Below, in pieces: positions 47,401 to 63,339 of a stretch of DNA of 64,000 nt. The position numbers and the translations under genes are program-made. Within the stretch, counting starts at the first letter, position 1; each line of letters opens with the position of its first letter. Source of the stretch: Curvibacter microcysteis (lineage in GTDB: Bacteria; Pseudomonadota; Gammaproteobacteria; Burkholderiales; Burkholderiaceae_C); the NCBI RefSeq assembly GCF_028649455.1, contig NZ_JAQSIO010000001.1:744001-808000 (forward strand). Reading direction: 5' to 3'. The notes under the pieces were generated by a model, which was not told the DNA's origin, made no database searches, and was given only the letters and a program-made list of their open reading frames with translations.

Positions 47401-48201
47401 GTGCAGGGCCGAGAGCTTGATGGAGATGCCCGGGCCTTCGTAAATGCCGCGCCCGGCCGAGGCCTGGCCGATGGCGTCGATGGCCTGCTCGTAGTCGCGC
47501 AGGTAGCGCTGCGCGTCGTGGGTGGTGAGCGCCGCCTCGCCCAGCATGTCGTAGGAATAGCGAAAGCCCTGGGCCTCCAGCGGGCGCGCATTGACCAGGG
47601 CCTGGCCAATGGTTTCACCGGTGACGAACTGCTCGCCCATCATTCGCATGGCCATGTCCACGCCCTTGCGGATCAGGGGCTCGCCGCCCTTCGCGGTCAG
47701 GCGCCCCAGGGCCGAGCCCAGGCCGCTTTCGCTGTGCGTGGCGACCAGCTTGCCCGTCAGCAACAGGCCCCAGGTGGCGGCGTTGACGAACAGCGAGGGG
47801 CTCTTGCCCAGGTGGGTGGCCCACTGGCCGTTGGCGATCTTGTCGCGGATCAGGGCGTCGCGCGTGGCCGCGTCAGGGATGCGCAGCAAGGCCTCGGCCA
47901 GGCACATCAGGGCCACGCCTTCTTGCGAGGACAGGGCGTATTCCTGCAACAGCCCTTGCACGATGCCGGCGCGCCCACCCGCCCGCTTGCGCTCGCGCAG
48001 CTGGTGCGCCAGGTGCTGCGCCAGTTGCTGGGTGGCCTGGGCCAAGGGCTGCGGCAAGCGCGCCTGCGGCAGCAGGTCGGCCAGGGCCTCAGGCTCGGGC
48101 CGGCGCCAGGCCGACGTGATGGCCGCGCGCAGCGGGGTAGCCGGGTTCAGGCCGGGGGTGAAACGCGCAAAAGGCAGGTCGGTGGGGGGCAAGGCAGACA
48201 T
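44449..48201 (-). CDS. putA: Bifunctional proline dehydrogenase / glutamate-semialdehyde dehydrogenase PutA
   Basis: A 1250-residue enzyme. FAD-dependent proline dehydrogenase barrel about residues 170-480 (GISIKLSALHPRYQ, VKGAYWDSEIK, FATHNAHTL). NAD-dependent aldehyde dehydrogenase about 570-1030 (ISPWNFPLAIF, AETGGQNAMIVDSS with the general-base Glu, DSAGQRCSAL with the catalytic Cys). A C-terminal domain of unknown role follows. The N-terminal ribbon-helix-helix DNA-binding domain of enteric PutA is absent, so it is not its own repressor. It converts proline to glutamate at the membrane. Divergent from the oxidoreductase gene. Confidence 0.95.
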   Translation of the reverse strand: MSALPPTDLPFARFTPGLNPATPLRAAITSAWRRPEPEALADLLPQARLPQPLAQATQQLAQHLAHQLRERKRAGGRAGIVQGLLQEYALSSQEGVALMCLAEALLRIPDAATRDALIRDKIANGQWATHLGKSPSLFVNAATWGLLLTGKLVATHSESGLGSALGRLTAKGGEPLIRKGVDMAMRMMGEQFVTGETIGQALVNARPLEAQGFRYSYDMLGEAALTTHDAQRYLRDYEQAIDAIGQASAGRGIYEGPGISIKLSALHPRYQRAQVSRVMGELYPVLLRLALQARRHDIGLNIDAEEADRLELSLDLLEKLCFEPALAGWNGIGFVIQAYQKRCPFVIDQVLDLARRSGHRLMVRLVKGAYWDSEIKRAQIDGLDGYPVYTRKAYTDVSYLACARKLLAAPEAVYPQFATHNAHTLAAIYQMANPDTYHSAQYEFQCLHGMGEPLYEQVVGAVAAGKLGRPCRIYAPVGTHETLLAYLVRRLLENGANTSFVNRIADHSLALEDLVQDPVEAVEQMAEREGTLGLPHPAIPLPRELYGTARLNSRGLDLANDQHLQALLQQLQQSAEQPWQAGPLLAQDAAPGLARPLSNPADVRDLVGLVQDASTADVASAVAAASEQAAAWAATPPADRATVLERAADLMEDALQPLMGLLIREAGKTCANAIAEVREAVDFLRFYAAQARRDFSQPGHSALGPVVCISPWNFPLAIFAGQVAAALAAGNPVLAKPAEQTPLVAAEAVRLLWQAGVPRAAVQLLPGPGETVGAQLVADDRVQAVMFTGSTEVARLLQKNLAGRLGASGQPVPLIAETGGQNAMIVDSSALVEQVVSDVVASAFDSAGQRCSALRVLCVQEEAAERVIEMLQGAMAELRLGRPDELAVDVGPVIDAEAQSNIQRHIDTLRQRGRRVYQQAGVGPAQATQQGTFVAPTLIELDSLAELEREVFGPVLHLVRYRRQDLPALLDQINATGYGLTLGLHTRIDETIARVVGHAHAGNVYVNRNMVGAVVGVQPFGGEGLSGTGPKAGGPLYLYRLLASRPDDGPARTFVQEGEAGGGDRPVGPGSPLAALQQWATDQGRSALAQACNRLGALSHSGCSRVLRGPTGERNLYTWLPREAVLCLADSDADRLLQLAAVLAVGSQAVWPVAAEAQRARLPEAVQARITLCTDWTQAQLAFDAVLHHGEPEALRAVCARLAGRPGPIVGVTALRPGDARVPLERLLIERALSVNTAAAGGNASLMTIG

Positions 48202-48383
48202 GGCGAGGCTTCCAGAAATTCAGACAATGCCGCTATCTTCCGAGGGATGAATCCGAATAACTGTTTGTATTTTGGAAAATCAACCGAACAAATCACCAAG
48301 CAAAACCCCAAACCACCCGGTCCCGACCCGGTTTTGTGCCACCGCGCCAGCGGGCGCGCGCCGTGCGTCGCACAATGGGCCGC

Positions 48384-49403
<1,020 letters not shown>

Positions 49404-49469: not shown

Positions 49470-50240
49470 TCAGCCGCGCCGTGCCTGGCGCGAGCGCATC
49501 TGACGCACCATGGCGTCAAAGAACTTCTCGGCAAAACCGTCCTCGCGGATCAGCTGCGCCGTCAGGTCGGCGCAACGCTGGCTGACCGCGCCGGGCAGGG
49601 CCACGTTGTCGCCCGCCAGGGCCCCGGCGGCGCACTGGATCTCGGCGGCGCGCTGCACCGTCCAGAGCAGGAAGAAGGTGCGGGCAATGTCCAGCTCGCA
49701 CACGGCCACGCCGTGGTTGCGCAGCACCAGGATGTGCTTGTCACCCAGACTGCTCAACATGCGCGACTTCTCGTCCGCGAACAGGGTGATGCCCTCGAAG
49801 GCGTGGTAACCGACACGGCCCGTGAGCTGGGCGCCGTAGAAGTCGTCGTGGCCGAAGCCCGCGCGCTTCAGGGCGATGGCCGAGACCTCGGTGGTGTGGG
49901 TGTGCATGACGCAGTGCACGTCCTCGCGCGCGCCGTGGATGGCGCTGTGCAGCGCAAAGCCAGCGGGGTTGGCGTCGTAGACCGAGGGCTCGACCTTGTG
50001 GCCCGCCAGGTCCACCTTGAGCAGGTTGGCCGGCGTGACCTCGTCGTAGTTGAGGCCGAAGGGGTTGACCAGGTAGTGGTCGCTGCCAGGGATGCGCGCG
50101 GAGATGTGGTTGAAGATGGTCTCGGTCCAGCCGAAGTAGTCCACCAGGTGGTAGGCGTCGGCGAGCTGGCAGCGCAGTGCCCATTCGCTGTCGCTGCAGT
50201 GGGCGGGCTGGAGTTGCTGCGGGGTCGGGGTCAGGTCCAT
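49470..50240 (-). CDS. Class II aldolase/adducin family protein at the end of the iac unit
   Basis: A 256-residue protein with zinc ligands in CVMHTHTTEV (His-x-His, about residue 93) and LRNHGVAVCE (His about 175). It has the short fold of fuculose-phosphate aldolase relatives, many of which are aldolases, epimerases or decarboxylases on sugar-like or hydroxy acids. It lies 48 bases after the ketopantoate-reductase-like gene on the same strand, so it probably belongs to the auxin-degradation transcript. Not a standard iac gene. Possible substrate: a product of the indole side chain (inference). Confidence 0.87.
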   Translation of the reverse strand: MDLTPTPQQLQPAHCSDSEWALRCQLADAYHLVDYFGWTETIFNHISARIPGSDHYLVNPFGLNYDEVTPANLLKVDLAGHKVEPSVYDANPAGFALHSAIHGAREDVHCVMHTHTTEVSAIALKRAGFGHDDFYGAQLTGRVGYHAFEGITLFADEKSRMLSSLGDKHILVLRNHGVAVCELDIARTFFLLWTVQRAAEIQCAAGALAGDNVALPGAVSQRCADLTAQLIREDGFAEKFFDAMVRQMRSRQARRG

Positions 50241-50288
50241 GAAAGCTCCAAAAATGAGAGGGCGAATTGATCGGGAAGGAAGGCGGTC

Positions 50289-51323
50289 TCAAGCCGCCAG
50301 GCGGCTGCGCTCGGCGCCACGCCAGCGCGCCAGGGCCAGCAGGGAGCGCGTGGCGGGGGTGGGCAGTTCGTAGCGCTCGGCGAGTTCGATCACGGCCTCG
50401 CCGATGGCGGCCAGCTCCAGCGGGCGGCCGCGCTCGTAGTCCTGCAGCATGGAGGTGCGCACCGCCCCCATGCCTGCGCCCAGGCGCAGGAACTCCTGCG
50501 GATCGAAGTCCAGGCGAGCGCCGTAGGCGCAGGCGGTGAGCATGACCTCGTGCATCACCTGGCGCACGGTGGCCAGCAGCGCGGGCTGGGTGTAGATCTC
50601 CTCCAGCGTGGCGCCGGTGACCACCGACAGCGGGTTGGAGGTGAGGTTGGCCATGACCTTGGTCCACAGCTTGTCGCGGATGCGTTCCAGGGCGCGTGCC
50701 TCGATGCCGGCGCCGGACAGCAGCTCGCGCAGCCACAGCAGGCGCGGGCTCATGGCGCCCGAGGGCTCGCCCAACATCATCAGGTGCGGGGTGCGCGACA
50801 GCACCTGGGCGGGCGCGCTGAGCTCGGCGGTGATGAAGACCACCGCGCCGATGACCTGGTCCAGGGGCAGCAGGCGCGGCAGCACGCCTTGTGGGTCGAC
50901 CGCGCGCACGCTCTGGCCGTCAAAGCGACCGCCCGCGCGGTGGAAGTACCAAAACGGCACGCCATTGGGCGTGGGCACGATCACCGTGTTCGGGCCGATC
51001 AAGGGGCCCACGCTGGCGGCCAGGTCCGGCAGGTCCTGCGACTTGCTGCACAGGAACAGCAGGTCTTGCACGCCAAACACTGGGGCAGCGTCGGCCTGCA
51101 CGGTAGCGTGGGTGCAGCCATTCAAGTCGTCCAGCCGCAGGCCCTGCTCGCGCACTGCACGCAAGGTGTTGCCACGCGCCAGCAGGCTGACCTGGTGGCC
51201 GGCCGCCGCCAGGCGTGTGGCCAGGGTGCAGCCGATGGCGCCAGCGCCCGCGATGGTGATGCGGGCCCGGGCAGGGAAAGGACCGGGAAAAGAGGTGGCC
51301 AAAGCCGGTTCCAGCAGGCTCAT
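50289..51323 (-). CDS. Ketopantoate reductase-like oxidoreductase (2-dehydropantoate 2-reductase family)
   Basis: A 344-residue enzyme. NADP-binding GAGAIGCTLATRLAA at residues about 26-40, the catalytic Lys in RDKLWTKVMANLTSNPLSVV and a C-terminal helical domain with the conserved Ser/Asp pair (TSMLQDYERGRPLE). It reduces a 2-keto acid to a hydroxy acid. It begins 3 bases after iacG, so co-transcription is nearly certain; this argues against a housekeeping panE and for a role in auxin breakdown. Confidence 0.87.
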   Translation of the reverse strand: MSLLEPALATSFPGPFPARARITIAGAGAIGCTLATRLAAAGHQVSLLARGNTLRAVREQGLRLDDLNGCTHATVQADAAPVFGVQDLLFLCSKSQDLPDLAASVGPLIGPNTVIVPTPNGVPFWYFHRAGGRFDGQSVRAVDPQGVLPRLLPLDQVIGAVVFITAELSAPAQVLSRTPHLMMLGEPSGAMSPRLLWLRELLSGAGIEARALERIRDKLWTKVMANLTSNPLSVVTGATLEEIYTQPALLATVRQVMHEVMLTACAYGARLDFDPQEFLRLGAGMGAVRTSMLQDYERGRPLELAAIGEAVIELAERYELPTPATRSLLALARWRGAERSRLAA

Positions 51324-51326
51324 GGC

Positions 51327-51824
51327 TCAGGCCGCCACACCCAGCGGGTGGTAATGGCGGTTGAAGTAGGCCAGGCCCCGCGCCGGCGCGTTGTCGTTGC
51401 GCTGGCGGATGTCGCGCAGCTCGACATAGAAGATGCTGTGCGTGCCCACCTCGTGGGTGGCGACGATCTGGCCATCGAAGTTGACCAGCGCGTCCTCGAA
51501 GGCGGGCGAGCCGGTTTGCAAGCGCTGCCAGTAGGCGCGCTCAAAGCGCTGCGGCATGCTCAAGGCCCGGTCCGCGAAGGCCGCCGACAGCGGCTGCTGC
51601 GCCGCGCTCAGCACGTTGACACAGAGCACCCCGTTGCCGGCAAAAAACGGGTGCGCGTAGGAGTTGCGGTTCATGCACACCAGCAAGGTGGGGGGCTGGT
51701 CGGTGACGCTGCAGACCGCCGACGCGGTGAAGCCCGCCAGGCCGGCCGGGCCGTCGGTGGTGATGATGGTGACGGCACCGGTCAGCAAGGACATGCCGTC
51801 GCGGAATTGTTGAAGAGGCACCAT
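51327..51824 (-). CDS. iacG: Flavin reductase IacG
   Basis: A 165-residue flavin reductase of the DIM6/NTAB type from ATG 51824 (MVPLQQFRDGMSLLTGAVTI). The FMN-binding motifs FTASAVCSVTDQPPTLLVC and GNGVLCVNVL are visible. It would supply reduced flavin to the IacA monooxygenase. Last of the nine genes in the canonical iacHABICDEFG order. Confidence 0.88.
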   Translation of the reverse strand: MVPLQQFRDGMSLLTGAVTIITTDGPAGLAGFTASAVCSVTDQPPTLLVCMNRNSYAHPFFAGNGVLCVNVLSAAQQPLSAAFADRALSMPQRFERAYWQRLQTGSPAFEDALVNFDGQIVATHEVGTHSIFYVELRDIRQRNDNAPARGLAYFNRHYHPLGVAA

Positions 51825-51880
51825 GGTGGGCTCCTGAATTGAGGTGGATGGGGCAGTGGGGAAGGCAGCGTCGCCGGGGC

Positions 51881-52849
51881 TCAGAGGTCCAGCACCAGGC
51901 GCGCCGAACGGGCGCGCGAGCAGCACACCAGGACCTGGTCGTTGGCGGCTTTTTCCTCGTCGGTGAAGTAGGCGTCGCGGTGCTCCGGCTCGCCCTCGAT
52001 CACATCGCAGGCACAGGTGCCGCACACGCCTTGTTCGCACGACAAGGTGATGCGCACGCCAACGCTGTGCAAAGCCTCGGCCATGCTCTGACCCGGCGCC
52101 ACGGTGACGGTTTTGCCGCTGCGCCGGGCCACCAGCTCAAAGGGCGCGTCGCCCGCGGCATGGGCCGGCACGGCGGCACCGAAGTACTCGCGGTGGATCT
52201 GCGCCTCGGCGAGGCCCGCGCTGCGCGCCTCGGCCATGACCCAGTCCATGAAGCCGGTGGGGCCGCACACATAGAGGTGGGTGCCGGCCACGGCGCCGGC
52301 CAGCAGCGCGGCGGGTTGCAGGCGCTGGGCGGGCTCGGCATCGTCAAAGTGCAGCTGCACGCGTTCGGCCCAAGGGGCGCGGGCCAGCTCGTCCAGGAAG
52401 GCGCACTGGCTGCGCGAGCGGGCGCAGTAGTGCAGCTCGAACGAGGCGCCGCTGGCGTGCAGCGCCCAGGCCATGGCGATCATCGGCGTGATGCCGATGC
52501 CGCCCCCGGCCAGCACGCTGTGCGCGGCACCGGCTTGCAGCGGGAAGTGGTTGCGCGGGCGGCTGATGGTGAGGGCCTGGCCCTCGCTCAACTGCTCGTG
52601 CACGGCCACCGAGCCACCGCGCGAAGCCGGGTCGCGCAGCACGCCCAGGCGGTAGCGGCCGGGCTCGCGCGGGTCGCCGCACAGCGAGTACGGGCGCGAC
52701 AGGCCGCCGGGCAGGTGCAGGTCGATGTGGGCCCCGGCCTCAAAGGGTGGCAGGGCCTGACCAGCCGCGTCGGCCAGCTCCAGCACCAGCACCTGGCCGG
52801 CTTGCAGTTCACGGTGCCGCAGCACCACGTGGAGGGTTTCAGAGCTCAT
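51881..52849 (-). CDS. iacF: Phthalate-dioxygenase-reductase-type electron donor IacF
   Basis: A 322-residue PDR/VanB-type reductase: flavin-binding RPYSLCGDP (about residue 52), NAD-binding GGGIGITPM (about 113) and a C-terminal plant-type 2Fe-2S domain with CEQGVCGTC and a fourth Cys in LVCCSRA. It passes electrons from NADH to the IacCD Rieske oxygenase, so no separate ferredoxin is needed. Confidence 0.9.
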   Translation of the reverse strand: MSSETLHVVLRHRELQAGQVLVLELADAAGQALPPFEAGAHIDLHLPGGLSRPYSLCGDPREPGRYRLGVLRDPASRGGSVAVHEQLSEGQALTISRPRNHFPLQAGAAHSVLAGGGIGITPMIAMAWALHASGASFELHYCARSRSQCAFLDELARAPWAERVQLHFDDAEPAQRLQPAALLAGAVAGTHLYVCGPTGFMDWVMAEARSAGLAEAQIHREYFGAAVPAHAAGDAPFELVARRSGKTVTVAPGQSMAEALHSVGVRITLSCEQGVCGTCACDVIEGEPEHRDAYFTDEEKAANDQVLVCCSRARSARLVLDL

Positions 52850-52868
52850 GAAGGTGCACTCCCAAAAA

Positions 52869-53627
52869 TCAGCGCATGAAGATGCCGCCGTTGAAGTCCC
52901 AGGCCGCGCCGGTGGCGAAGTCGGCTTCGGCGCTGGCCAGCAGCAGCACCATGCGGGCGACGAATTGCGGGTTGCCCAGGCGCTGCACGGGGATGGCCTT
53001 GATCAGCGGCTCCAGGCGCTCGGGCGGCACGGCGGCGCGCACCGAGGGCAGCTCCATCGGGCCTGGGGCCACCGCGTTGACGGTGACGCCGCGCGCCGCC
53101 AGTTCGCGCGCAAAGATCTTGGTCAGGGTCAGGATGCCGGCCTTGGACGAGGCGTAGTGCGCGCCCGAGGCCGTGCCCCCGTTTTGCCCAGCCAGCGAGG
53201 CCAGGTTGATGATGCGGCCGTGGCCGGCTTCGGCCATGGCCGCGCCAAACACCTGGCAGCCCAGGAAGGTGCCGCGCAGGTTGATGCGCAGCACCTGCTC
53301 GAACTCCTCCGGGCTGATGCTCATCAGCGGCGTGGTCAACGTGAGCGCGGCGTTGTTGACCAGCACCGAGGGCTGGCCCCAGCGCGCGCGGGTGCTGGCC
53401 AGCGCGGCTTCAAAGTCGCTCTTGTGGCTGACGTCCAGCGCCAGGCCCAGCGCCGTCTGGCCGCTGGGGTCGAGCGCGGCGGCGGCGGCCACCGCGGCCT
53501 CGGCGTGGCGGTCGCTGAGCACCACGCGGTAGCCGTGGGCGTGCAGCTCGGCCGCGATGATCTGGCCCAGGCCGGCGGCGGCCCCGGTGATCAGGGCGAC
53601 CGGGGCGATCGACGTGGGGGCGCTCAC
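52869..53627 (-). CDS. iacE: Short-chain dehydrogenase/reductase IacE
   Basis: A 252-residue SDR with TGAAAGLGQ (cofactor site), NNAA, a Ser in NLASLAGQN and the catalytic YASSK. It starts with GTG and overlaps the iacD stop by 4 bases. IacE assists IacA in forming dioxindole-3-acetate from indole-3-acetate in studied strains. No membrane segments. Confidence 0.9.
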   Translation of the reverse strand: MSAPTSIAPVALITGAAAGLGQIIAAELHAHGYRVVLSDRHAEAAVAAAAALDPSGQTALGLALDVSHKSDFEAALASTRARWGQPSVLVNNAALTLTTPLMSISPEEFEQVLRINLRGTFLGCQVFGAAMAEAGHGRIINLASLAGQNGGTASGAHYASSKAGILTLTKIFARELAARGVTVNAVAPGPMELPSVRAAVPPERLEPLIKAIPVQRLGNPQFVARMVLLLASAEADFATGAAWDFNGGIFMR

Positions 53628-54100
53628 AGGATGTAGCCGATGCTGGTCAGCGCATCGGAGGAGTTGATCAGGCGCACCACCTTGCTGTGGATGACAAAGC
53701 TGTCACCACGGGCTTGCAGCACCCAGGTGACGTCGGCCACATGGCGGCGCAGCGTGTCCTTGCGGAACTCGCTGAGCTCCTGCGCGCCGCGCAGGGTGAG
53801 GCGGTCGCCGTCCTGGGCCAGCACGCGCAGGCGCGACACGCTGCGCACGGTGCGCGCGGCGGGGCTGGTGGAGATGGACTCGCCACTGGTCAGGCGCTTG
53901 ACGCGTTTGACGCGCATCTCGGCGTCGTCGTAAGCGTAGTTCAGGGTGTTGGCAAAGTCGTTGGTGGCCGGGTCGATGGGGATGATGTAGAGGCCGTCGG
54001 CGGCCCACAGGGACAGCCAGGCCTCGTAGTCGGCGTGGTCCAGCAGGTCCGCTTCGGTCCAGACAAAAGCGGTGGCGGCGTTCAATAGGTCGAGCTTCAT
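53624..54100 (-). CDS. iacD: Ring-hydroxylating dioxygenase small subunit IacD
   Basis: A 158-residue beta subunit starting at ATG 54100 with the cystatin-like fold of small subunits (ATAFVWTEADLLDHADYEAW, LYIIPIDPATNDF, RLRVLAQDGDRLTLRGAQEL). It stabilises the IacC hexamer. The ATG lies 17 bases after the iacC stop; its stop overlaps iacE. Confidence 0.9.
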   Translation of the reverse strand: MKLDLLNAATAFVWTEADLLDHADYEAWLSLWAADGLYIIPIDPATNDFANTLNYAYDDAEMRVKRVKRLTSGESISTSPAARTVRSVSRLRVLAQDGDRLTLRGAQELSEFRKDTLRRHVADVTWVLQARGDSFVIHSKVVRLINSSDALTSIGYIL

Positions 54101-54117
54101 GCGCGGGGTCTCCAGGT

Positions 54118-55392
54118 TCAGGCGGTCATCAGTTTTTTCCACTCGCGGTAGGCCGCGCGCATGCCGGTTTCGGCGCTCACGTCGCTGGCCCGACCGTCTT
54201 CGGTGATGCGTTCACCGGGCAAGCCGCGGTTGAGCAGAATCCACAAGTCCTTGCCGGCCTGCGCGCCCTTTTGCACGCGCTCCCAGGCCTCGGAGTCGTC
54301 GGGGGTGCCGAAGCCCATCGGGCCCTGGAAGTGCTCGTGCAGGCGCAGGCGGGCGCGGTTGGCGGCGGCGGGGCCGCCTTGCATGGTCAGCACCGCGTGG
54401 TGGATTTCGGTCTCGTTGACCGACATGGGCTGCAGCACCCGGAAGAAGGCCATCGAGCAGGCGATGTTGGGGAAGAGGTTGAGGTTGAAGCCCGAGCCAC
54501 CAACCGCGCGCACGATGCGGCGCACCTGCTCGTCGCTGTGGCCTTCGGCGGCCAGTTCAGCGGCCAGCTCGGCAAAGCGCTCGGGGATGGGGTCGTCGAG
54601 GTGGTCCTCGAGGTCGATCAGCTCGGGGATCATCACCATCACGCTGTGGCCGTTGCCCAGGTCTTCGACAAAGCCGGGGCCGCCCACGAAGTCGAGCATG
54701 CGCTCGGTCTGCGCGTCCACCGAGCTCAGGAAGGACTTGTGCACCAGCGGGAAGTGGTAGGCGTCGGTGGTGTTTTCGAGCTGGATCTTCCAGTTGCCCG
54801 GGAAGCGGAAGCGGTGTTCGCCGCCGACCTTGATGGGGTAGCCCGCGCCCTGCTTCATGAACAGGTCCATCCACTTGCGCGCCGGGCCCAGGTAGTCGGC
54901 CAGGGGCTCGATGTCGTCGCGGAAGGTGGCGAAGATCATGCCGGCGTAGGACTCCACGCGCAGGCCGAACAGCGGGTAGTCGCCCTTGTCCAGGCACTGG
55001 CCGTAGCTGTCGGGGCTGGGCACACCGCGCAGCGAGCCGTCGAGCGCGTAGCTCCAGCCGTGGTAGGGGCAGACGAAGCTGGCGGTCTTGCCCTTCTTGT
55101 GCTCGCAGACGGTGGCGGCGCGGTGGCGGCAGCGGTTCAGCAGCACATGGATCTGCTGCTTGCGGTCGCGCACCACGATGACGGGTTCGCGGCCCACGAA
55201 GTGGGTCTTGAAGCTGCCGGGCTCGGCGACTTCGCTCTCGTGCGCGACCCAGACCCAGGTGTTGCGGAAGATGCGGTCCATCTCCTGCTCGAAGATGGCG
55301 GGGTCGGTGTAGAGCGAGGTGTGGGCGCGGTCCTCGCGGACCAGGTCGCCCACCGGGCGCTGAAAGAAGACGGGTTGGACAGGGGCGTTCAT
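54118..55392 (-). CDS. iacC: Rieske ring-hydroxylating dioxygenase large subunit IacC
   Basis: A 424-residue alpha subunit. The Rieske cluster ligands are Cys88-x-His90 and Cys108-x2-His111 (RCRHRAATVC and CPYHGWSY). The catalytic iron site includes Asp210, His213 and His218 in NTTDAYHFPLVHKSF. With IacD and IacF it opens the way from dioxindole-3-acetate to catechol in studied strains. Confidence 0.93.
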   Translation of the reverse strand: MNAPVQPVFFQRPVGDLVREDRAHTSLYTDPAIFEQEMDRIFRNTWVWVAHESEVAEPGSFKTHFVGREPVIVVRDRKQQIHVLLNRCRHRAATVCEHKKGKTASFVCPYHGWSYALDGSLRGVPSPDSYGQCLDKGDYPLFGLRVESYAGMIFATFRDDIEPLADYLGPARKWMDLFMKQGAGYPIKVGGEHRFRFPGNWKIQLENTTDAYHFPLVHKSFLSSVDAQTERMLDFVGGPGFVEDLGNGHSVMVMIPELIDLEDHLDDPIPERFAELAAELAAEGHSDEQVRRIVRAVGGSGFNLNLFPNIACSMAFFRVLQPMSVNETEIHHAVLTMQGGPAAANRARLRLHEHFQGPMGFGTPDDSEAWERVQKGAQAGKDLWILLNRGLPGERITEDGRASDVSAETGMRAAYREWKKLMTA

Positions 55393-55434
55393 GGCGGGTG
55401 TCGGAAGTGGGTGGAGGAAGGGTTGGTCAGGGGG

Positions 55435-56010
55435 TCAGGCCGCGCTGGCCGCGGAAGGCGTCGCCTGGGCCGCCGGCACGGGCAAGGCACTGGCGTCGCG
55501 CCAGGCGCTGACCGGGCGGCTGAACAGGTTTTCGGTCTCGAACAAGGCGATGCGCCAGCGGCCGTCGGCACCGCGCTGCAGTTGCAGGCTGAGCTCGGCG
55601 GCGTTGAGGTGCGAATCACCACTGGCGAAGGTGGAGGTCTGCAACATGACCCAGCTGGCGCGGGCCTGGTCACCCTCGGGCTCGATCAGTTCAGAGCACA
55701 GGAAGTGCACGTTGAGCGCAAAGTGCGGCGGCGTGCGCATGTAGCGGCTGAACATCTCGCCGATGGCGGCGCGACCCTGGTAGCCGCCAAAGCTGACGGC
55801 GTAGCGTGCGCCCTTGCCGCGCCACAGCGCGTCTTCGGTGAACAGGTCCAGCAGCGCGGGCAGGTCGGTGTCGGCGTCGAGGCGGTCGCACAGCGCCATG
55901 TAGCGGTTGACACAGGCGCGGATGGCGTGCTGGTCGTCGCCGCGTTGCACGCGCGCCTCCAGGGCAGCCAGGCGGGCGCTCAGCGCCAACAGATCAGCTT
56001 CGGCAGACAT
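55435..56010 (-). CDS. iacI: NTF2/SnoaL-like protein IacI
   Basis: A 191-residue protein: N-terminal helix (LLALSARLAALEARVQRGDD), then an NTF2-like barrel (RACVNRYMALCDRLDADTD, LLDLFTEDALWRGKGARYAV, YRMRTPP-like segment). The C-terminal 35 residues are Ala-rich. IacI is an accessory protein of unknown reaction. Its position between iacB and iacC matches the conserved order. Confidence 0.83.
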   Translation of the reverse strand: MSAEADLLALSARLAALEARVQRGDDQHAIRACVNRYMALCDRLDADTDLPALLDLFTEDALWRGKGARYAVSFGGYQGRAAIGEMFSRYMRTPPHFALNVHFLCSELIEPEGDQARASWVMLQTSTFASGDSHLNAAELSLQLQRGADGRWRIALFETENLFSRPVSAWRDASALPVPAAQATPSAASAA

Positions 56011-56024
56011 GGCGGGCCCCGGGC

Positions 56025-56417
56025 TCAGGCAGCGGCTTGCACGCTGGGCGGCACGACCAGTTCGCGGCCGACACGGGCCTCGACGCGGCAGTACTTCCAG
56101 AGCTTGTAGGCGCCGTCCCCGACCGGCAGGGTGCGGAACAAATTGCAGGCGGCGTGCACCGTGGCCAGGTCGGGCACGTCGGCCAGCACGTAGCAGGTCC
56201 AGGGCCAGCCGACCGAGGGACCGACCATGGACTGGTCGTCGTCCATGTTGCCCAGGACGTGGACACCGGGCAGCTCGCCAATGCCATTCATCATGCGGCC
56301 AAAGGCCAGCCAGACGGCCTTGGCCTCGTCGGCCGTGGCGTCAAAGAAGTTCTGGTTCACGCCGATGCAAAACAGGGTGCGCAGCGGCTTGGTGGGGGTG
56401 GGGGTGGGGGTGCTCAT
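56025..56417 (-). CDS. iacB: Conserved auxin-cluster protein IacB
   Basis: A 130-residue soluble protein with no catalytic motif I can name. It begins with Thr-Pro repeats (MSTPTPTPTKP), then LRTLFCIGVNQNFFDATADE and VAGPSVGW-like segments suggesting a dimeric alpha+beta barrel. Small IacB proteins of unknown role are invariant in iac clusters, and the assignment rests mainly on position between iacA and iacI. Confidence 0.75.
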   Translation of the reverse strand: MSTPTPTPTKPLRTLFCIGVNQNFFDATADEAKAVWLAFGRMMNGIGELPGVHVLGNMDDDQSMVGPSVGWPWTCYVLADVPDLATVHAACNLFRTLPVGDGAYKLWKYCRVEARVGRELVVPPSVQAAA

Positions 56418-56438
56418 GGCAAAAGTCCTTTGCGGGGT

Positions 56439-57620
56439 TCAGAGGTATCCGGGCAGGGGCGGCAGGCCCAGCAACATGGCGCCTGCGTTCTGGAAGGTGA
56501 TGTCGCCCATGAAGGCGTGCTGGGTCAGCACCAGGCTGTCGCAGACCTGCTGCGAAATCGGGCAGCTTTCGTAGACGCCGGTCATGCCGGTCTGCATCTG
56601 CACGGCACGCGTCACTTCGGCGCCGACGCGGGTGGCGTGCGTGGCCGACAGGCGCAGCAGGCTGATCTGCTCGGGCTGGGGCGTGTCACCGCGCAGCAAG
56701 GCCTCCCAGACCTGGTCGATGGCGTCGTAGAAGAAGGCGCGGGCAGCGCGCAATTGGGCGTCGGCGCGGGCCACTTCGATCTGCACTTGCGGGCGGTCGG
56801 CCAGGCGCGGCGCCCCCGTCACCGAGACGCGGCCACCGGCCATCTGGCGCAGCTCGTCGATGGCGGCGCGGGCGATGCCCAGGCTGACCACCGACAGCAC
56901 CTGCGCGGCAAAGGACAGCGTGGGGTAGCGGAACATGGGCTCGTCCAGGCGCGAGGCACTGCCCCGCACAAAGGTCCAGGCCTCGGGCACGAGCACGCGG
57001 TCCACCCGCACGTCGTGGCTGCCGGTGCCGGCCAGGCCCACCACGTCCCAGGCGGGCTCGATCTGCACCTGGTGGCGCGGCAGCACGGCCATGCGCGGCA
57101 GGCTGGTCTTTTCACCGTCGGCGGGGGCGATGCCCACACCGATCCACTGCGCGCCCATGCAGCCGCTGGCAAAGGACCAGCGCCCGCTGACCTCGAAGCC
57201 GCCCTCGACCCGGGCCGCGCGCTGCGGCGGGAAGATGCCGCCGGCAAAAATCACGTCGGGCGAGTGGGCGTAGATCTCGGCGAAGGTCTCGCTGGGCAGG
57301 GCCGCGAGGTAGGTCACGGCCATGCCGAAGCTGGCCACCCAGCCGGCCGAGCCGTCGGCCTGGGCGATGGTTTCGACGCGCTCGCAGAACTGGCGCGGCG
57401 ACTCTTCGAGGCCGCCAAAGCGACGCGGCACCAGGGCGCGGTAAACGCCCTGTTCGACGAAGCGGTCGACGATGTCGGGCGAGACAAAGCGCTGCTTCTT
57501 GAACTCGGCGCGGCGGCGCCGGATGTCGCTGAGCAGCAGGTCCAGGGACGGCTTCTCAGGGGGCAGCACAGGGCGCACGGCGGCGGGGCTGTCAGTGCGT
57601 TGCGGGCTCAAAGTCTGCAT
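56439..57620 (-). CDS. iacA: Indole-3-acetate monooxygenase IacA (acyl-CoA dehydrogenase fold)
   Basis: A 393-residue flavoprotein from ATG 57620: SPDIVDRFVEQGVYRALVP and RFGGLEESPRQF near the N terminus, IAQADGSAGWVASF, the central beta-domain (GRWSFASGCMGAQWIG) and a C-terminal four-helix bundle. It hydroxylates the indole ring using flavin reduced by IacG. The start lies inside the last 29 bases of iacH, showing translational coupling. Confidence 0.9.
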   Translation of the reverse strand: MQTLSPQRTDSPAAVRPVLPPEKPSLDLLLSDIRRRRAEFKKQRFVSPDIVDRFVEQGVYRALVPRRFGGLEESPRQFCERVETIAQADGSAGWVASFGMAVTYLAALPSETFAEIYAHSPDVIFAGGIFPPQRAARVEGGFEVSGRWSFASGCMGAQWIGVGIAPADGEKTSLPRMAVLPRHQVQIEPAWDVVGLAGTGSHDVRVDRVLVPEAWTFVRGSASRLDEPMFRYPTLSFAAQVLSVVSLGIARAAIDELRQMAGGRVSVTGAPRLADRPQVQIEVARADAQLRAARAFFYDAIDQVWEALLRGDTPQPEQISLLRLSATHATRVGAEVTRAVQMQTGMTGVYESCPISQQVCDSLVLTQHAFMGDITFQNAGAMLLGLPPLPGYL

Positions 57621-58758
57621 GGGGGACTCCGTTGGTGATGGCGGTGAGGTGAAGGCGTTCGGACAGGCGCTGGGCGATGGCGCACAGGCGCTCGTCGTCG
57701 CCGCGCAAGGCCACCAGTTGCAGGCCCACGGGCAGGCCTTGCGCATTGCACAAAGGCAGGCTGATGGCCGGGTGACCCGACAAATTGAAGGGCCGCACCA
57801 GGGCGGTCATGCCGACCGAAGCGCCGGTGTCGGCGGCCTGGCTCAGGCGCGGCGGTGGCTCGGGCAAGGTGGGCAGGGCCAGCACATCGCAGTCGGCCAG
57901 GGCCTGGTCCACGTCGGCGGCAAACAGGCGGCGCACCGCGGCGGCGGCCTTGATGGCGATGTCGTCGGTGCGGCTGGCGTGGCGCAGGCGGGCGGCCACG
58001 TCGGGGGCGACCAGGCCGGTCTCGACCAGGGCCTGGCAAGCGCTCCAGGTTTCGACATTGATGACGCTCAGGCCTGCGTGGTAAGCCTCGGCAAAGCGGC
58101 GCAGGTGGACGAGCAGCAGGGTCTCGCCGCTGGCTTGCAAGGCCTGGTGGACGGCCTGCCAGGTGCCAGGCTGGGCGGGGACATCGAGCACGCCAATGCG
58201 CAGGCGCTCGGGCAAGGCGGGCAGCGCGCCAAAGTCGGGCGCAATGACCTGCATGGCCGCCACCAGCTCGGGCATCGACGCAGCCAGCGGCCCCACGCAG
58301 TCCAGCGTGCTGTGGCGCGGCAACACGCCTTCGCGGCTGACGCGGCCAAAGGTGGGCTTGAGGCCGAACACGCCGCAGCAGGCGGCGGGCACCCGGATGG
58401 ATCCGCCCGTGTCGGTGCCCAGGGCCACGCCGACCAGCCCTGCGGCCACGGCGGCGGCGGAACCACTGGACGAGCCGCCCGGCACGCGGTCAGGCCAACC
58501 CGAGTTCAGCGGTGTGCCGGCCCAGGGGTTGATGCCGGTGGTGCCAAAGGCCAGCTCGTGCAAATGGGTCTTGCCACGGAGGTGCCAGCCGGCCGCCAGC
58601 AGGCGCTGCACCACCTCGGCGTGGCGGGTGGCGGGCGCTGCGTCGGCCAAGGCCCGGCTGCCGGCGCGGGTGGCATAGCCGGCCACATCCAAGGTGTCCT
58701 TGACCATCACGGCGGGCCCGTCGGCGCCCAGCGAGAGAGGTTGCGAAACGATGTTCAT
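57592..58758 (-). CDS. iacH: Amidase-signature family enzyme IacH, first gene of the iac operon
   Basis: A 388-residue amidase. The Ser-cisSer-Lys triad is visible: Lys20 in [10 protein letters not shown], Ser97 in PGGSSSGS and nucleophile Ser120 in [16 protein letters not shown] precedes the ATG. It hydrolyses an amide in the pathway; a natural candidate is the C4 amide left when catechol is released from dioxindole-3-acetate (inference), or auxin-amino acid conjugates. Confidence 0.9.
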
Positions 58759-58872
58759 GAAGCCCTTCCGTTCAGAGGTGGGAGGGCGGGCCGGGCGGCC
58801 GGTGTGCCCTCGAGAAAGCCCCGAACCAGGGCTGTCACTCAGGGCGCAAAGTTAGTTTTTATTACGTGAATA

Positions 58873-58886
58873 GTCAATTAATTAAC
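58873..58886. promoter_or_regulatory. Candidate MarR-type operator for the iac operon
   Basis: GTCAATTAATTAAC is a 14-base near-perfect palindrome with a single mismatched pair, centred about 120 bases upstream of iacH. AT-rich palindromes of this kind are typical MarR-family sites, and iac clusters are usually controlled by the MarR protein IacR. The iacR gene itself is not in the window. Confidence 0.5.
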
Positions 58887-58952
58887 CCACTGCTTTGCCT
58901 GAGCAAAACCGGTGCTGACAAAGATCAAAATGGCGCCGATTTGGGGCAAGCC

Positions 58953-58978
58953 GCACCGTGCTGGTGGATAAATCCACC
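58953..58978. promoter_or_regulatory. NtrC-like enhancer site overlapping a second dyad
   Basis: CGCACCGTGCTGGTGGA (58952-58968) follows the NtrC pattern TGCACC-N4-TGGTGCA with mismatches only at the outer bases. GGTGGAT-AA-ATCCACC (58963-58978) shares its right half and is a perfect 7-bp dyad. It lies about 200 bases upstream of the sigma-54 promoter match, a suitable enhancer distance. Confidence 0.5.
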
Positions 58979-59147
58979 CAGCAACCCCTCATAAAGCCTT
59001 ATCAGACAAGGCGGTTGCAATTCATACCGAATCGACCAGAAAAAATCAGGCACCCAATTTCCCCAGAAGAAACCCGACCCCACTGATAAGAGCGGTCGAT
59101 TCCGGTCTTGTATTTCATGGATTTTTGCAAAATTTATTTAATGGAAT

Positions 59148-59164
59148 TTGGCATGATTAATGCT
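59148..59164 (+). promoter_or_regulatory. Sigma-54 (-24/-12) promoter of the Liv-type importer
   Basis: TTGGCATGATTAATGCT fits YTGGCACG-N4-TTGCW with two mismatches. The invariant GG (59150-59151) and GC (59162-59163) are exactly 12 bases apart. It precedes the substrate-binding-protein ATG by 108 bases. The window also carries rpoN. Confidence 0.65.
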
Positions 59165-59271
59165 GACCTGGATCAACCCAGGTTGCCTGCGCTTGCCGCG
59201 CGCTTGGGTCCGGAGGAAACCCTCGTTTTTTTCTTCACCCTTGCGCTGAGCAGCGCGCGGAGTTCGCCACC

Positions 59272-60426
59272 ATGTCGCCTCTTTCCTGCCTCGTCCGTCC
59301 CCTTTTGTTGAGCAGCCTGCTGGCCGCCTGCCACCTGGCCCAGGCCCAGATCAAGGTGGGGGTGGTGTCCTCGGCCACCGGCCCCATTGCGCTGGTGGGC
59401 ATTCCCCAGAAGAACACCGTGCCCTTGCTGCCGACCAAAGTGGCGGGCCAGACCATCGAGTACATCGCCCTGGACGACGCCAGCGACCCGACGGCCTCGG
59501 TGTCGGCGATCAAGAAGCTGATCAACGAGGACAAGGTGGACGCGCTGATCGGTCCCAGCGGCTCGCCCAACGCCATGGGCGTGATCCAGTTCGTGGCCGA
59601 GGCCGGTGTGCCCATGTTTGCCCCGGTGGGCACCGCTGCCGTGGTGCTGCCGATGACCGAGCAGAAAAAATGGGTCTTCAAGACCACGCAGAACGACGAC
59701 CTGATTGCCCGCGCCCTGGTGCAGCAAATGAGCCAGACCGGCATCAAGACGGTGGGCTTCATCGGCACCGCCGACCCCTATGGCGACAACTGGCACAAGG
59801 TGTTTGAAGGCATGGCCACCCAGGCAGGCATCAAGCTGGTGTCGGCCGAGCGCTTTCAGCGCCAGGACACCTCGCTGACCGCCCAGTCGCTCAAGACCCT
59901 GGCGGCCAAACCCGACGCGGTGCTGATCGCGGCCCCAGGCAGCTCCTCGGTGCTGCCGCAGACCACCTTGTTTGACCAGGGCTACCGCGGCAAGGTCTAC
60001 CAGACCCACGGTGCGGCCCTGCCCGACTTCCTGAAGCTGGGCGGCAAAAAGGTCGAGGGCACCATCCTGGCTGCCAGCGGCATGCTGGTGCTGGACCAGA
60101 TGAGCGACAGCAACCCGAGCAAGAAGATCGCCAGCGCCTATGTCGCGGCCTATGAAAAACTCCACGGCAGCAAGCCAGCCACTTTTGGCGCCAATGTGTA
60201 CGACGCTGGGCTGCTGCTGCAGGCCGCCATCCCGGCCGCGCTCAAGGGCGGCAAACCCGGCACACCGGCCTTCCGCAGCGCGCTGCGCGACGCCCTGGAG
60301 CAGGTGCGCGAGTTGCCCGCCACGCAAGGCGTGTACAACCTGAGCGCCGCCGACCACAGCGGCTTTGACGAACGCGGGCGCGAGCTGATCACCGTGAAAA
60401 ACGGTCAGTGGACGCTGCTGAAGTGA
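59272..60426 (+). CDS. Branched-chain-amino-acid-type periplasmic binding protein (LivK family)
   Basis: A 384-residue binding protein with signal sequence MSPLSCLVRPLLLSSLLAAC. Both a lipobox (LAAC) and a conventional AQA cleavage site are possible. The two-lobed fold has IKVGVVSSATGPIALVGIPQ, DDASDPTASVSAIKKL and GPSGSPNAMGV. Such proteins bind amino acids, amides or aromatic acids. Opposite the iac operon, indole-3-acetate or an auxin conjugate is an attractive ligand (inference). First gene of a four-gene importer behind the sigma-54 promoter match. Confidence 0.87.
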   Translation: MSPLSCLVRPLLLSSLLAACHLAQAQIKVGVVSSATGPIALVGIPQKNTVPLLPTKVAGQTIEYIALDDASDPTASVSAIKKLINEDKVDALIGPSGSPNAMGVIQFVAEAGVPMFAPVGTAAVVLPMTEQKKWVFKTTQNDDLIARALVQQMSQTGIKTVGFIGTADPYGDNWHKVFEGMATQAGIKLVSAERFQRQDTSLTAQSLKTLAAKPDAVLIAAPGSSSVLPQTTLFDQGYRGKVYQTHGAALPDFLKLGGKKVEGTILAASGMLVLDQMSDSNPSKKIASAYVAAYEKLHGSKPATFGANVYDAGLLLQAAIPAALKGGKPGTPAFRSALRDALEQVRELPATQGVYNLSAADHSGFDERGRELITVKNGQWTLLK

Positions 60427-60436
60427 GGCCTGCGTG

Positions 60437-61483
60437 ATGGATCTGCAAATCGCCATGCTGCTGGGCCAGGACGGCATGACCAGCGGCGCCATCTACGCCC
60501 TGCTGGCCCTGTCCATCGTGCTGGTCTTCACCGTCACGCGCATCATGCTGGTGCCGCAGGGCGAGTTCGTGACCTTTGGCGCCATGACCATGGCCGCCTT
60601 GCAAGCCGGGCAGACCGCCCGCCTGGCCTGGCTGCTGCTGGCCCTGGCCGCCCTGCACTGGGCGCTGCGCGGCTGGCGCGCCTGGCGCCGGGGCGACGCG
60701 CTGGCCCGAGCCCTGTTCGCTGGTCCGGCCCTGGTGCTGCCGGCACTGACCACCGGCCTGTGGCTGATCAGCCGCCTGCCTGGCTCGGCCGACTGGCCCA
60801 TGGGCTTGCAAGCGCTCTACACCCTGGCCCTGGTGGTGCCACTGGGCCCGCTGCTGTACGACCTGTGCTTTCGCCCGATCGCGGCCGCGCACTCGCTGGT
60901 GCTGCTGATTGTGTCGATCGCGGTGCACGTGGTGCTGGTCGGCCTGGCGCTGATGATGTTTGGCGCCGAGGGCGCTCGCACCCAGCCGTTCTCGGAAGAA
61001 GGCCTGAGCCTGGGACCGGTGACGCTGAACGGCCAGACCCTGTGGGTGCTGGTGGTGTCGCTGTTGTTGATTGGCGGCCTGTACCTGTTCTTTGAACGCA
61101 GCCTGTACGGCAAGGCGCTGCGCGCCACCGCGGTGAACCGGCTGGGCGCTGAGCTGATGGGCATTTCGCCCACGCTGGCGGGTCAGGCCAGTTTTGGCGT
61201 GGCCGCCTTCATGGGCGGGCTGTCGGGGGTGCTGATCGCGCCACTGACCACGCTGTACTACGACTCCGGCTTCATCATCAGCCTCAAGGGCTTTGTGGGC
61301 GCCGTCGTCGGCGGGCTGATCAGCTACCCCGTGGGGGCCCTGGGCGCCTTGGGCGTGGGGCTGGTCGAGGCCTATTCCACCTTCTGGGCCAGCACCTACA
61401 AGGAGGTGATTGTGTTCACCCTGATCCTGCCGTTTCTACTGTGGCGCTCGCTCGCCACCCACCACCATGAGGAGGACGCATGA
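60437..61483 (+). CDS. LivH-type ABC permease
   Basis: A 348-residue permease starting at ATG 60437 ([20 protein letters not shown]), with eight or more hydrophobic helices and the LivH hallmark stretches [16 protein letters not shown] and [16 protein letters not shown] hydrophilic insert [14 protein letters not shown] at about residue 75-95 makes it longer than typical LivH (about 300). Its stop overlaps the next start by 4 bases. Confidence 0.9.
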
Positions 61484-63339
61484 GCGCCACCCTGCCCCCA
61501 CCCACCGAGGCCCGCATGGCGTCGGCCCTGGCTTTGCACGGCGGCGCCTGGCGCCGCTGGGCCCTGCCCTTGCTGGCGCTGTTGTTTGTGCTGCTGGGGC
61601 CCTTGCTGCCCAGCTTTCAGCTCACACTGGCCAACAACATTGGCCTGGCCGCGCTGACCACCCTGGGCCTGGTGCTGCTGACCGGCGTGGCCGGCATGAC
61701 CAGCTTCGGCCAGGCCGCCTTTGTCGGCCTGGGTGCCTACACCTGCGCTTACCTGAGTGCCGTGCCCAGCCTGCCGGCCTGGCTGCAGCCACTGGCGGGA
61801 TCGCACTGGAGCGCCCTGCTGCTGGGCCTGGTGCTGACGCTGGCGATCGCCGCCGTGCTGGGCGCGCTGACCCTGCGCCTGTCCGGCCACTTCTTGCCCC
61901 TGGGCACGATTTGCTGGGGCCTGGCGCTGTTCTACCTGTTTGGCACGCTGGAGGTGCTGGGCGCGCACACCGGGCTGTCGGGCCTGCCCGCGCTCAGCGT
62001 GGGCCCCTGGCTGCTGGACAAGCCCGAGAAGATGTTTGTGCTGATCTGGGTCACCGTGCTGGGCGCGCTGCTGCTGGTGCACAACCTGCTGGACTCGCGC
62101 AGCGGGCGCGCCATCCGCGCGCTCAACGGCGGCCAGGCGATGGCGGACTCCATGGGCGTGCCGGTGTTCCGCGCCAAGCTCACCGCCTTCATGCTGTCGG
62201 CCGCGCTGGCCTGCGTGTCGGGCTGGCTGTATGCCTGCAACCAGCGCTTTGTCAGCCCGGCGCCGTTCAGCCTGGGCGCGGGCATCGACTACCTGTTCAT
62301 GGCCTTGATTGGCGGCAGCGGACAGCTGTGGGGCGCGGTGCTGGGCGCCGGCGTGGTGACGCTGGCGCGCGACCTGCTGCAAGACAGCCTGCCCAAGCTG
62401 CTGGGCAGCAGCGGCAGCTACGACGCGATCGTGTTTGGCGTGCTGATCGTGCTGCTGATGCAGCGCGCGCCCTGGGGCCTGGCGGGCTGGATGGTGCGCC
62501 GCTGGCCCCGCCGCCGCCCTGCAGTGGCCCCCGCCAGCGGGCCTGTCGACGCCCTGCCCCGCCGCACCCTGCCCGCACGCGGCCAGACCGTGCTGCAGGT
62601 GCGCGGACTGACACGGCGCTTTGGCGGCCTGGTGGCCAACCGCGACCTGAACCTGGACCTGAAGGCGGGCGAGATCCTGGCCGTCATCGGGCCCAATGGC
62701 GCGGGCAAGAGCACGCTGTTCAATCAGCTGTCCTGTGTGGACCAACCGAGCTCGGGCGAGATCGAGTTCTGCGGCCAGAACGTGCGCGGCTGGGGCGCGC
62801 GCCGCATCGCCGCGGCCGGCCTGTCGCGCACCTTCCAGCACGTCAAGCTGCTGCCCAGCATGAGCGTGCTGGAGAACGTGGCCATCGGCGCGCACCTGCG
62901 CGGCCGCCAAGGCCTGCTGCCCAGCGCCCTGCGCCTGGACCGGCGCGAGGAGCACGCGCTGCTGGCCGAGGCCCAGCGCCAGCTCGACCGCGTCGGCCTG
63001 GGTGCGCTGGCCCATGCCGAAGCCGGCAACCTGGCCCTGGGCCAGCAACGCCTGCTGGAGATCGCCCGCGCCCTGTGCGCCGACCCGGCGGTGCTGCTGC
63101 TGGACGAGCCCGCCGCCGGCCTGCGCCACCAGGAAAAGCAAGCCCTGGCCGAGCTGCTGCAACGCCTGCGCGCCGAAGGCATGGCGGTGCTGCTGGTCGA
63201 ACACGACATGGACTTTGTGATGAACCTGGTGGACCGCATCGTGGTGGTGGTGTTCGGCGAAAAAATCGCCGAAGGCCTGCCCCAGGACATCCAGCAAAAC
63301 GACCAGGTGCTCGACGCCTACCTCGGAGCTTCTGCATGA
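61480..63339 (+). CDS. LivM-LivG fusion: ABC permease joined to ATPase
   Basis: A 619-residue fusion. Residues about 20-340 are a LivM permease ([20 protein letters not shown]). Residues about 370-619 are a LivG ATPase with Walker [16 protein letters not shown], the family stretch [20 protein letters not shown] and Walker [12 protein letters not shown]. The signature is [15 protein letters not shown], where LSGGQ is usual. The linker is Pro/Arg-rich. Usually these are two genes. Confidence 0.92.

Follow-up and report, generated by a model that had tools for sequence, protein, structure and literature searches.

A 64,000-nucleotide stretch of the Curvibacter microcysteis genome (hereafter the window, which corresponds to positions 744001-808000 of contig C1 of the 4.82 Mb genome) was analyzed for a cluster of iac genes, which are involved in the degradation of the auxin indole-3-acetate (IAA). 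Eleven genes on the minus strand, running from position 58758 down to 49470, encode iacH, iacA, iacB, iacI, iacC, iacD, iacE, iacF and iacG, followed by a ketopantoate-reductase-fold protein (KPR) and a class II aldolase-fold protein (ALD). All of iacA to iacI are present on one strand in the order HABICDEFG with short gaps, and the locus is a complete iac cluster of a known kind with a divergent ATP-binding cassette (ABC) transporter operon and a linked iacR-like gene. A preliminary description of this DNA had already named these eleven genes and their order, both of which held up, and the domain families of the products fit. What lies here is an ordinary complete iac cluster together with a widespread accessory pair, KPR and ALD, to which the literature that we found assigns no role. 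The features are as follows.

57592..58758, minus strand: iacH, an amidase of 388 amino acids (PF01425, 1.8e-75), 49-90% identical to IacH of other iac loci, the 90% match being that of Curvibacter sp. HBC61.
56439..57620, minus strand: iacA, a flavin-dependent monooxygenase of 393 amino acids (PF08028, 1e-20; HsaA-like, 7.9e-48), an acyl-CoA-dehydrogenase-like flavoenzyme.
56025..56417, minus strand: iacB, 130 amino acids.
55435..56010, minus strand: iacI, a SnoaL/NTF2-like protein of 191 amino acids (PF13577, 6.8e-17).
54118..55392, minus strand: iacC, the Rieske oxygenase alpha subunit of 424 amino acids (PF00355, PF00848), 76-98% identical to those of the 78 listed loci.
53624..54142, minus strand: iacD, the ring-hydroxylating beta subunit, 172 amino acids as listed with an uncertain start (PF00866, 1.5e-18).
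52869..53627, minus strand: iacE, a short-chain dehydrogenase of 252 amino acids (PF13561, 7.7e-52).
51881..52849, minus strand: iacF, a ferredoxin-type reductase of 322 amino acids (PF00111, PF22290).
51327..51824, minus strand: iacG, a flavin reductase of 165 amino acids (RutF, 4.7e-57; HpaC, 3.4e-50; both scored on a longer open reading frame).
50289..51323, minus strand: KPR, a candidate 2-hydroxyacid oxidoreductase of the ketopantoate reductase fold, 344 amino acids (NF005089, 6.2e-90; PF02558/PF08546, PanE/ApbA).
49470..50240, minus strand: ALD, a class II aldolase-fold protein of 256 amino acids (NF005451, 5.8e-81; Aldolase_II).
58759..59271, no strand: the intergenic stretch that separates iacH from the divergent transporter operon, a presumptive control region judging by its position.
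59272..60426, plus strand: an ABC transporter substrate-binding protein that may serve auxin uptake; a homologue lies beside iac in 31 of the 33 loci with an adjacent KPR.
60434..61483, plus strand: an ABC transporter permease.
61480..63339, plus strand: an ABC transporter permease-ATPase fusion.

The distances between neighboring genes range from a 29-base overlap to a gap of 56 bases (H/A -29, A/B 21, B/I 14, I/C 42, C/D -25, D/E -4, E/F 19, F/G 56, G/KPR 3 and KPR/ALD 48, with overlaps given as negative numbers), and the last two values agree with the tight coupling of the two extra genes that had been described for them. The starts of iacA and iacG were corrected to 57620 and 51824, respectively, and the longer open reading frames were dropped on the basis of codon scoring and alignment with homologues.

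For comparison, 78 iac loci were fetched as the best IacC matches in the genome collection, a set that is rich in Pseudomonas. Genes in these loci were called with a codon-score script that may miss genes, above all in loci with a low guanine-plus-cytosine content, and some neighbors (muconate genes, sugar-acid genes) were named by eye. All nine iac genes were found at the cut-off in 54 of the 78 loci, several of the others being cut by contig ends. The closely related Curvibacter sp. HBC61 (genome G006) has a collinear iac cluster in which the nine Iac proteins, KPR and ALD are 89.9-97.6% identical to those of the window. Identity of IacC is 98% in this strain and 77% in a record named Pseudomonas composti LY1 (locus L108), for which both IacA and IacE are 64% identical. 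Chance resemblance is no serious alternative because loci of other genera match all nine proteins and keep their gene order. The iac cluster is rare, IacB being found in 5 of 399 genomes of a sample of the order and in 2 of 369 of a sample of the class, with the genome of the window counted in both; searches with Pfam and NCBIfam profiles gave no family for IacB.

The assumption that IacH is present in every iac cluster was refuted, 14 of the 78 loci having yielded no IacH at the cut-off; several of these 14 are cut by contig ends. Six of the 14 loci (L035, L036, L042, L047, L048 and L053) contain a second amidase family, AMI2, which occurs in 7 of the 78 loci overall and looks like a non-orthologous replacement of IacH. 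In L042 and L044, AMI2 directly follows ALD. Some clusters are split: the stretch fetched for L030 (G375) contains only iacA, B, E and G, and L087, L090 and L109 contain only iacC, D and H plus a weak IacI. These split clusters suggest two separable modules, one leading from IAA to dioxindole-3-acetate and one from dioxindole-3-acetate to catechol.

The clusters of P. putida 1290, Enterobacter soli LF7 and Pseudomonas sp. LY1 have, like the window, all nine genes, and share with it the catechol route that is predicted for the window; the HABICDEFG order of the window is the one reported for LF7 and LY1. Growth of Pseudomonas sp. LY1 on IAA requires iadA, iadB and iadE of its iadHABICDEFG cluster (PMC8383072). 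Within the genus, IAA is degraded by Curvibacter strain SE9, in which the iac operon is induced; SE9 is one of the strains whose growth is described as extremely slow (PMC11630574). The iad pathway of Variovorax is similar to iac in that it is an aerobic catabolism of IAA with a Rieske-type oxygenase and an ABC binding protein, while it differs in its genes and in its end product, anthranilate (PMC12633357, PMC9613470).

Table 1 of PMC11373566 lists neither KPR nor ALD for the P. putida 1290 cluster. The LY1 record, taken from its name to be the same strain, carries the transporter, KPR and ALD, as does the window, and the words ketopantoate, 2-reductase and aldolase do not occur in the main text of PMC8383072. 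In a literature search that had most subscription journals outside its scope, only PMC11373566 was found to list both genes beside iac. The cluster described there, from Marinomonas sp. MWYL1/NFXS50, contains iacR, a class II aldolase gene, a 2-dehydropantoate 2-reductase gene, an ABC transporter and iacABICDEFG; unlike in the window, the order is iacR-ALD-KPR-transporter genes, and the iacH of NFXS50 is only 28.6% identical to that of P. putida 1290 (PMC11373566). Some Marinomonas strains add a gene for a 2-hydroxyacid-oxidizing enzyme, and both KPR and ALD are listed with function unknown (PMC11373566).

The KPR of the window served as query in the 76 genomes behind the 78 iac loci (39 + 37), leaving out L058 and L074, the latter a 3.8 kb contig. 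A KPR with 44-91% identity was found in 34 of the 76 genomes (20 of 39 and 14 of 37). Four further genomes had matches of at most 39% and 38 had none at E 1e-50, which together make 42 of 76. In 33 of the 34 positive genomes KPR lies within the fetched iac locus or at most 702 bases from its edge, the three cases beyond the edge being confirmed by fetching. In the remaining genome (G860) KPR is on a different contig, next to an additional iac cluster (L154); the part of this cluster that was fetched comprises iacH, A, B, I and a portion of iacC. KPR is therefore beside an iac cluster in all 34 genomes, and ALD adjoins it on the same strand in every one of them. The KPR-ALD pair is a conserved accessory pair of iac clusters, and the idea of a local insertion was rejected on the same count. 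The adjacency search that the preliminary description had called for found the pair conserved. Its statement that neither gene belongs to the iac core is right, although the two had already been listed for iac clusters of Marinomonas (PMC11373566).

The association was also visible in wider samples. KPR at 60% identity or higher occurred in 3 of 300 genomes of the order, all of which are iac genomes (that of the window, G081 and G201), with at most 7 candidates per genome scored in this set of 300; in a companion search, too, scoring was limited to the top 7 or 8 per genome. Outside the 76 genomes, G783 of the class sample has, at about 5 kb from iac genes, a KPR of 47% identity together with a partial ALD. 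A further iac-type KPR copy (52%; L155, G845:C47) does not lie beside iac, and the 18 kb fetched around it contain no iac gene. By eye, sugar-acid-type genes are near this copy. ALD, which was looked for in KPR-less iac genomes only within the fetched loci, occurs without KPR in L101.

The pair is found in at least four arrangements and in three proteobacterial classes. The order iacG-KPR-ALD is present in Curvibacter, Azohydromonas, Sphaerotilus, Ideonella and Aquabacterium, with one gene between iacG and KPR in both Sphaerotilus loci, and the order transporter-KPR-ALD is present in Pseudomonas, Stutzerimonas, Azospirillum, Derxia, Acinetobacter and G201. In L094 (Pseudomonas sp. CFII64) the order is aromatic amino acid transaminase-KPR-ALD-iacHABICDEFG, in which the transaminase, KPR, ALD and iacH are codirectional (L094:3662-7794); this run of genes resembles a single operon that would channel tryptophan into the iac pathway. 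In G201 iacABE and the transporter precede the pair, and a separate group with the opposite orientation holds iacCDF and iacH. The three loci with iacCD and iacH that lack iacA, iacB and iacE (L087, L090 and L109) do not have the pair. In phylogenetic trees, 16 iac ALDs form one clade (100/100), and 17 iac KPR copies together with the solo copy of L155 form one group (100/99).

These results bear on whether the two genes are simply carried along by shared descent of the cluster and have no role in indole metabolism. Related clusters do share neighbors by descent, and the iac-type KPR of L155 shows that a copy can lie away from iac. However, the association has outlasted several rearrangements across the three classes, and residues of the active-site type are invariant in both proteins, as detailed below, so that we consider a passenger status very improbable.

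A possible link to transport was seen in the neighborhood of the pair. KPR is present in 31 of 44 iac loci with the transporter versus 2 of 33 without it (Fisher p 6e-9, uncorrected for relatedness of the genomes and for cut contigs; 77 loci, L058 being left out and L074 counted as lacking both the transporter and KPR). In many Pseudomonas loci ALD of the transporter-KPR-ALD order is followed by a chemoreceptor-like gene (best NCBIfam match below the cut-off) and, in some, by an iacR-like gene. In the genome of the window, a further transporter ATPase gene straddles the window end and the iacR-like gene lies just past it, at about 64231-64704 in window numbering (L028:8231-8704). Its 157-amino-acid protein is matched at 41-80% by proteins encoded close to the transporter or ALD of other iac loci; it is called MarR-type by eye and after the Marinomonas paper, NCBIfam having given no family. 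The co-occurrence with the transporter and the recurring order in Pseudomonas would be expected if the pair handled another auxin-like substrate or conjugate imported by the same transporter, or cleared a side product, by a chemistry that we have not guessed and that may include true aldolase or decarboxylase activity. This explanation by itself does not account for the aromatic transaminase and homoprotocatechuate contexts described below, and we regard it as a serious possibility, albeit one that is probably not correct.

The preliminary description had proposed that the pair acts on the four-carbon remainder left by the release of catechol. In this scheme IacCDF would release catechol and a malamate-like amide from dioxindole-3-acetate, IacH would convert the amide to malate, and KPR and ALD would oxidize and cleave or decarboxylate the four-carbon hydroxy or keto acid. 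Published work calls the conversion of dioxindole-3-acetate to catechol unresolved (PMC9613470, PMC7225977), and for an IacCD homologue an angular dioxygenation has been speculated (PMC8383072), which would fit the putative malamate-like remainder. The tight coupling of the pair to iacG in Curvibacter and its relatives, the activity of the known KPR-fold family on 2-hydroxy and 2-keto acids, the 2-hydroxyacid-oxidizing enzyme of some Marinomonas clusters (PMC11373566) and a decarboxylase among the fold neighbors of ALD are all compatible with such a role.

However, the same genome contains a second iac cluster that does without the pair. This cluster, iacABICDEFG at about 270.6-276.8 kb of C1, has an IacC that is 79% identical to that of the window and the same kind of transporter. 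Its amidase is AMI2, at about 282-283.3 kb (L024:5972-7309), and IacH, KPR and ALD are absent near it (L023, L024; G000:C1 about 270600-283300). A backup of the second cluster by a paralogue from another part of the genome was considered improbable, since the sole other KPR found (39%) sits in a homoprotocatechuate operon. A catechol 1,2-dioxygenase-like gene lies at C1:266087, 3.7 kb from the second cluster, and is the best match in the genome at 363 bits, below the curated cut-off of 392. Muconate-type genes, named by eye, are also near the second cluster. Among the eight Curvibacter congeners, three have an IacC with at least 79% identity: HBC61 has one cluster of the first type, and C. gracilis and C. 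lanceolatus (G002, G005) have one of the second type each.

Together with the 42 iac genomes without KPR at the threshold, the second cluster leaves the four-carbon role with little support. Malate needs no special enzymes, the pair is missing from L087, L090 and L109 where iacCD and iacH are present, and in G201 it stands apart from iacCDF and iacH. In addition, paralogous pairs occur in pathways in which no malamate is expected. Of the scheme in the preliminary description, the coupling of the pair to the cluster stands, and its part in the fate of the four-carbon remainder appears improbable.

The predicted properties of the two proteins suggest a different role. In KPR, Lys222, Asn226, Asn230 and Glu303 are invariant in 17 sequences, and we take them to be the catalytic positions of ketopantoate reductase. 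The structural model (predicted local distance difference test score, pLDDT, 92.5) has 3ghy as its best fold match; the matches are mostly ketopantoate reductases, with D-mandelate dehydrogenases appearing from rank 12. KPR shares with this family the fold and the conserved Lys, Asn, Asn and Glu, and differs from its members in sequence, identity being about 16-37% among the matches listed.

In ALD, three histidines of a putative metal site (His113, His115 and His176) are invariant in 18 sequences from iac and non-iac loci, which gives the protein the three-histidine signature of class II aldolases of the FucA type. Gly94 is likewise invariant, at a position counted back from the His-x-His motif; this is presumably the counterpart of the catalytic Glu73 of FucA. 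The fold matches of the model (pLDDT 86.1) were, in order, 3ocr (an uncharacterized Pseudomonas protein), adducin, 4xxf (named L-fuculose-1-phosphate aldolase, from Glaciozyma), NovR, pyruvic oxime dioxygenase, TqaM, 2z7b (a non-oxidative pyridine-dicarboxylate decarboxylase) and then bacterial FucA. Foldseek template modelling scores by query length were 0.76-0.84 for the NovR, pyruvic oxime dioxygenase and TqaM chains, the fold being one that aldolases and adducin also have and that is not decisive by itself, and ALD is 21-24% identical to CloR/NovR, pyruvic oxime dioxygenase and TqaM in the fold alignments. The three histidines of ALD are also reported for CloR/NovR and pyruvic oxime dioxygenase, and CloR/NovR, pyruvic oxime dioxygenase and TqaM act on 2-keto acids, on an oxime of such an acid or on 2-hydroxy acids. 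Of the active-center residues of FucA, the iron enzyme pyruvic oxime dioxygenase keeps only the histidines (PMC5216522). CloR/NovR decarboxylates a prenylated 4-hydroxyphenylpyruvate oxidatively in two rounds, at an iron site with three histidines, and so yields a benzoate (PMC13111500), and TqaM carries out the oxidative decarboxylation of a 2R-hydroxy acid (PMC11880133). One TqaM structure holds D-3-phenyllactate according to its entry title.

Relatives of the pair outside iac were examined in 46 stretches with a KPR or ALD relative. Both genes lie beside homoprotocatechuate (hpa) genes in nine of them (L112, which is from this genome, L118, L119, L135, L137, L140, L143, L150 and L169), and in L170 ALD alone is found with such genes. 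The sister ALD-KPR pair of C. microcysteis itself lies inside its homoprotocatechuate operon, as checked by protein families (L112:7526-9449; G000:C1:937526-939449). In L113-L116 the pair accompanies a PRK08132-group flavin adenine dinucleotide hydroxylase, with genes of a tripartite ATP-independent periplasmic transporter in three of the four; most of these stretches also hold a second class II aldolase-fold protein. In L136 the KPR relative is one gene away from, and downstream of, a 4-hydroxyphenylpyruvate dioxygenase gene. An ALD relative at E 1e-60 was present in 70 of 150 genomes sampled around G278; 25 of the best 30 ALD loci of that sample have an adjoining KPR, and in five of the 30, all of one genus, an aromatic transaminase is directly upstream (transaminase-ALD-KPR). 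Two transaminase-linked ALDs group with the homoprotocatechuate ones at modest support (82/61, 87/91). Occurrence beside unrelated operons, which the preliminary description would have counted against its proposal, was thus seen in part: the iac-type copies stay with iac apart from L155, and the sister pairs are found in other operons, including one in this genome.

The iac, homoprotocatechuate and transaminase settings have in common an arylacetate to which an aromatic amino acid can be converted through an aryl-pyruvate or aryl-lactate, and we therefore propose that the pair feeds the iac pathway from upstream. KPR would act as a nicotinamide adenine dinucleotide (phosphate)-dependent 2-hydroxyacid dehydrogenase that interconverts indole-3-pyruvate and (probably D-) indole-3-lactate. 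ALD would be a three-histidine iron(II) oxygenase rather than an aldolase, removing one carbon oxidatively from the 2-hydroxy or 2-keto acid, and the resulting IAA would then be attacked by IacA. The sister pairs of homoprotocatechuate operons may perform the same chemistry on hydroxyphenyl-lactate or hydroxyphenyl-pyruvate. The proposal takes account of the placement of the pair beside iac with ALD adjoining in 34 of 34 genomes in varied arrangements, the single ALD clade, the transaminase and homoprotocatechuate contexts, the neighbor in L136, the NovR, TqaM and pyruvic oxime dioxygenase folds, and the D-mandelate dehydrogenase folds. Position leans toward a feeder as well, given the layout of G201 and the lack of the pair in L087, L090 and L109. 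That KPR interconverts the two indole acids and that ALD oxidatively decarboxylates one of them to IAA is offered tentatively, as a reading whose chances we place somewhat short of even. The order of the steps and the stereochemistry are guesses, and the more specific version, in which indole-3-pyruvate is converted to D-indole-3-lactate and this to IAA by an aldolase-fold iron oxygenase as an auxin route free of thiamine diphosphate, with the sister pairs acting likewise on tyrosine-derived acids, is doubtful.

Several observations weigh against the feeder proposal. In the window the pair comes last in the whole operon, behind iacG, and a transaminase was found near iac in only 2 of the 78 loci (L094, where it is adjacent, and L035, where it is 2.6 kb from ALD). 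Many relatives of KPR and ALD are in surroundings without a visible aromatic operon, and ALD is found without KPR in L101, in L170 and in 5 of the 30 best sampled loci. The best folds for ALD are the uncharacterized 3ocr and adducin; 4xxf ranks just above NovR, and the decarboxylase 2z7b is also a neighbor. The use of iron and oxygen by ALD is a prediction that sequence alone does not reveal, no enzyme activity was found in the literature for any KPR or ALD of these clades, and the link to iac may come partly from shared descent.

Elsewhere in the window, PutA-like and luciferase-like monooxygenase genes, named by eye, lie downstream of the cluster at 44449-49403, as they do in HBC61. Rfam and tRNA scans of the window gave no hits.

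Plant-associated bacteria are known to destroy auxin aerobically by two routes. One of these is the iac pathway, several steps of which have no assigned enzyme. A two-gene module found next to iac in slightly fewer than half of the iac genomes searched (34 of 76) points either to a step still missing from the pathway or to a second substrate that has escaped notice, and the present genome, in which one iac cluster has the pair and the other does not, is a ready test bed. If the pair is indeed a feeder, then bacteria presumed to be auxin destroyers would also produce auxin, with indole-3-lactate or indole-3-pyruvate as the source. A large group of genes that now bear the name aldolase would in that case be oxygenases. 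If the route through D-indole-3-lactate is true, auxin degraders would draw on tryptophan-derived indole acids, and the sister pairs on tyrosine-derived ones, ahead of homoprotocatechuate cleavage.

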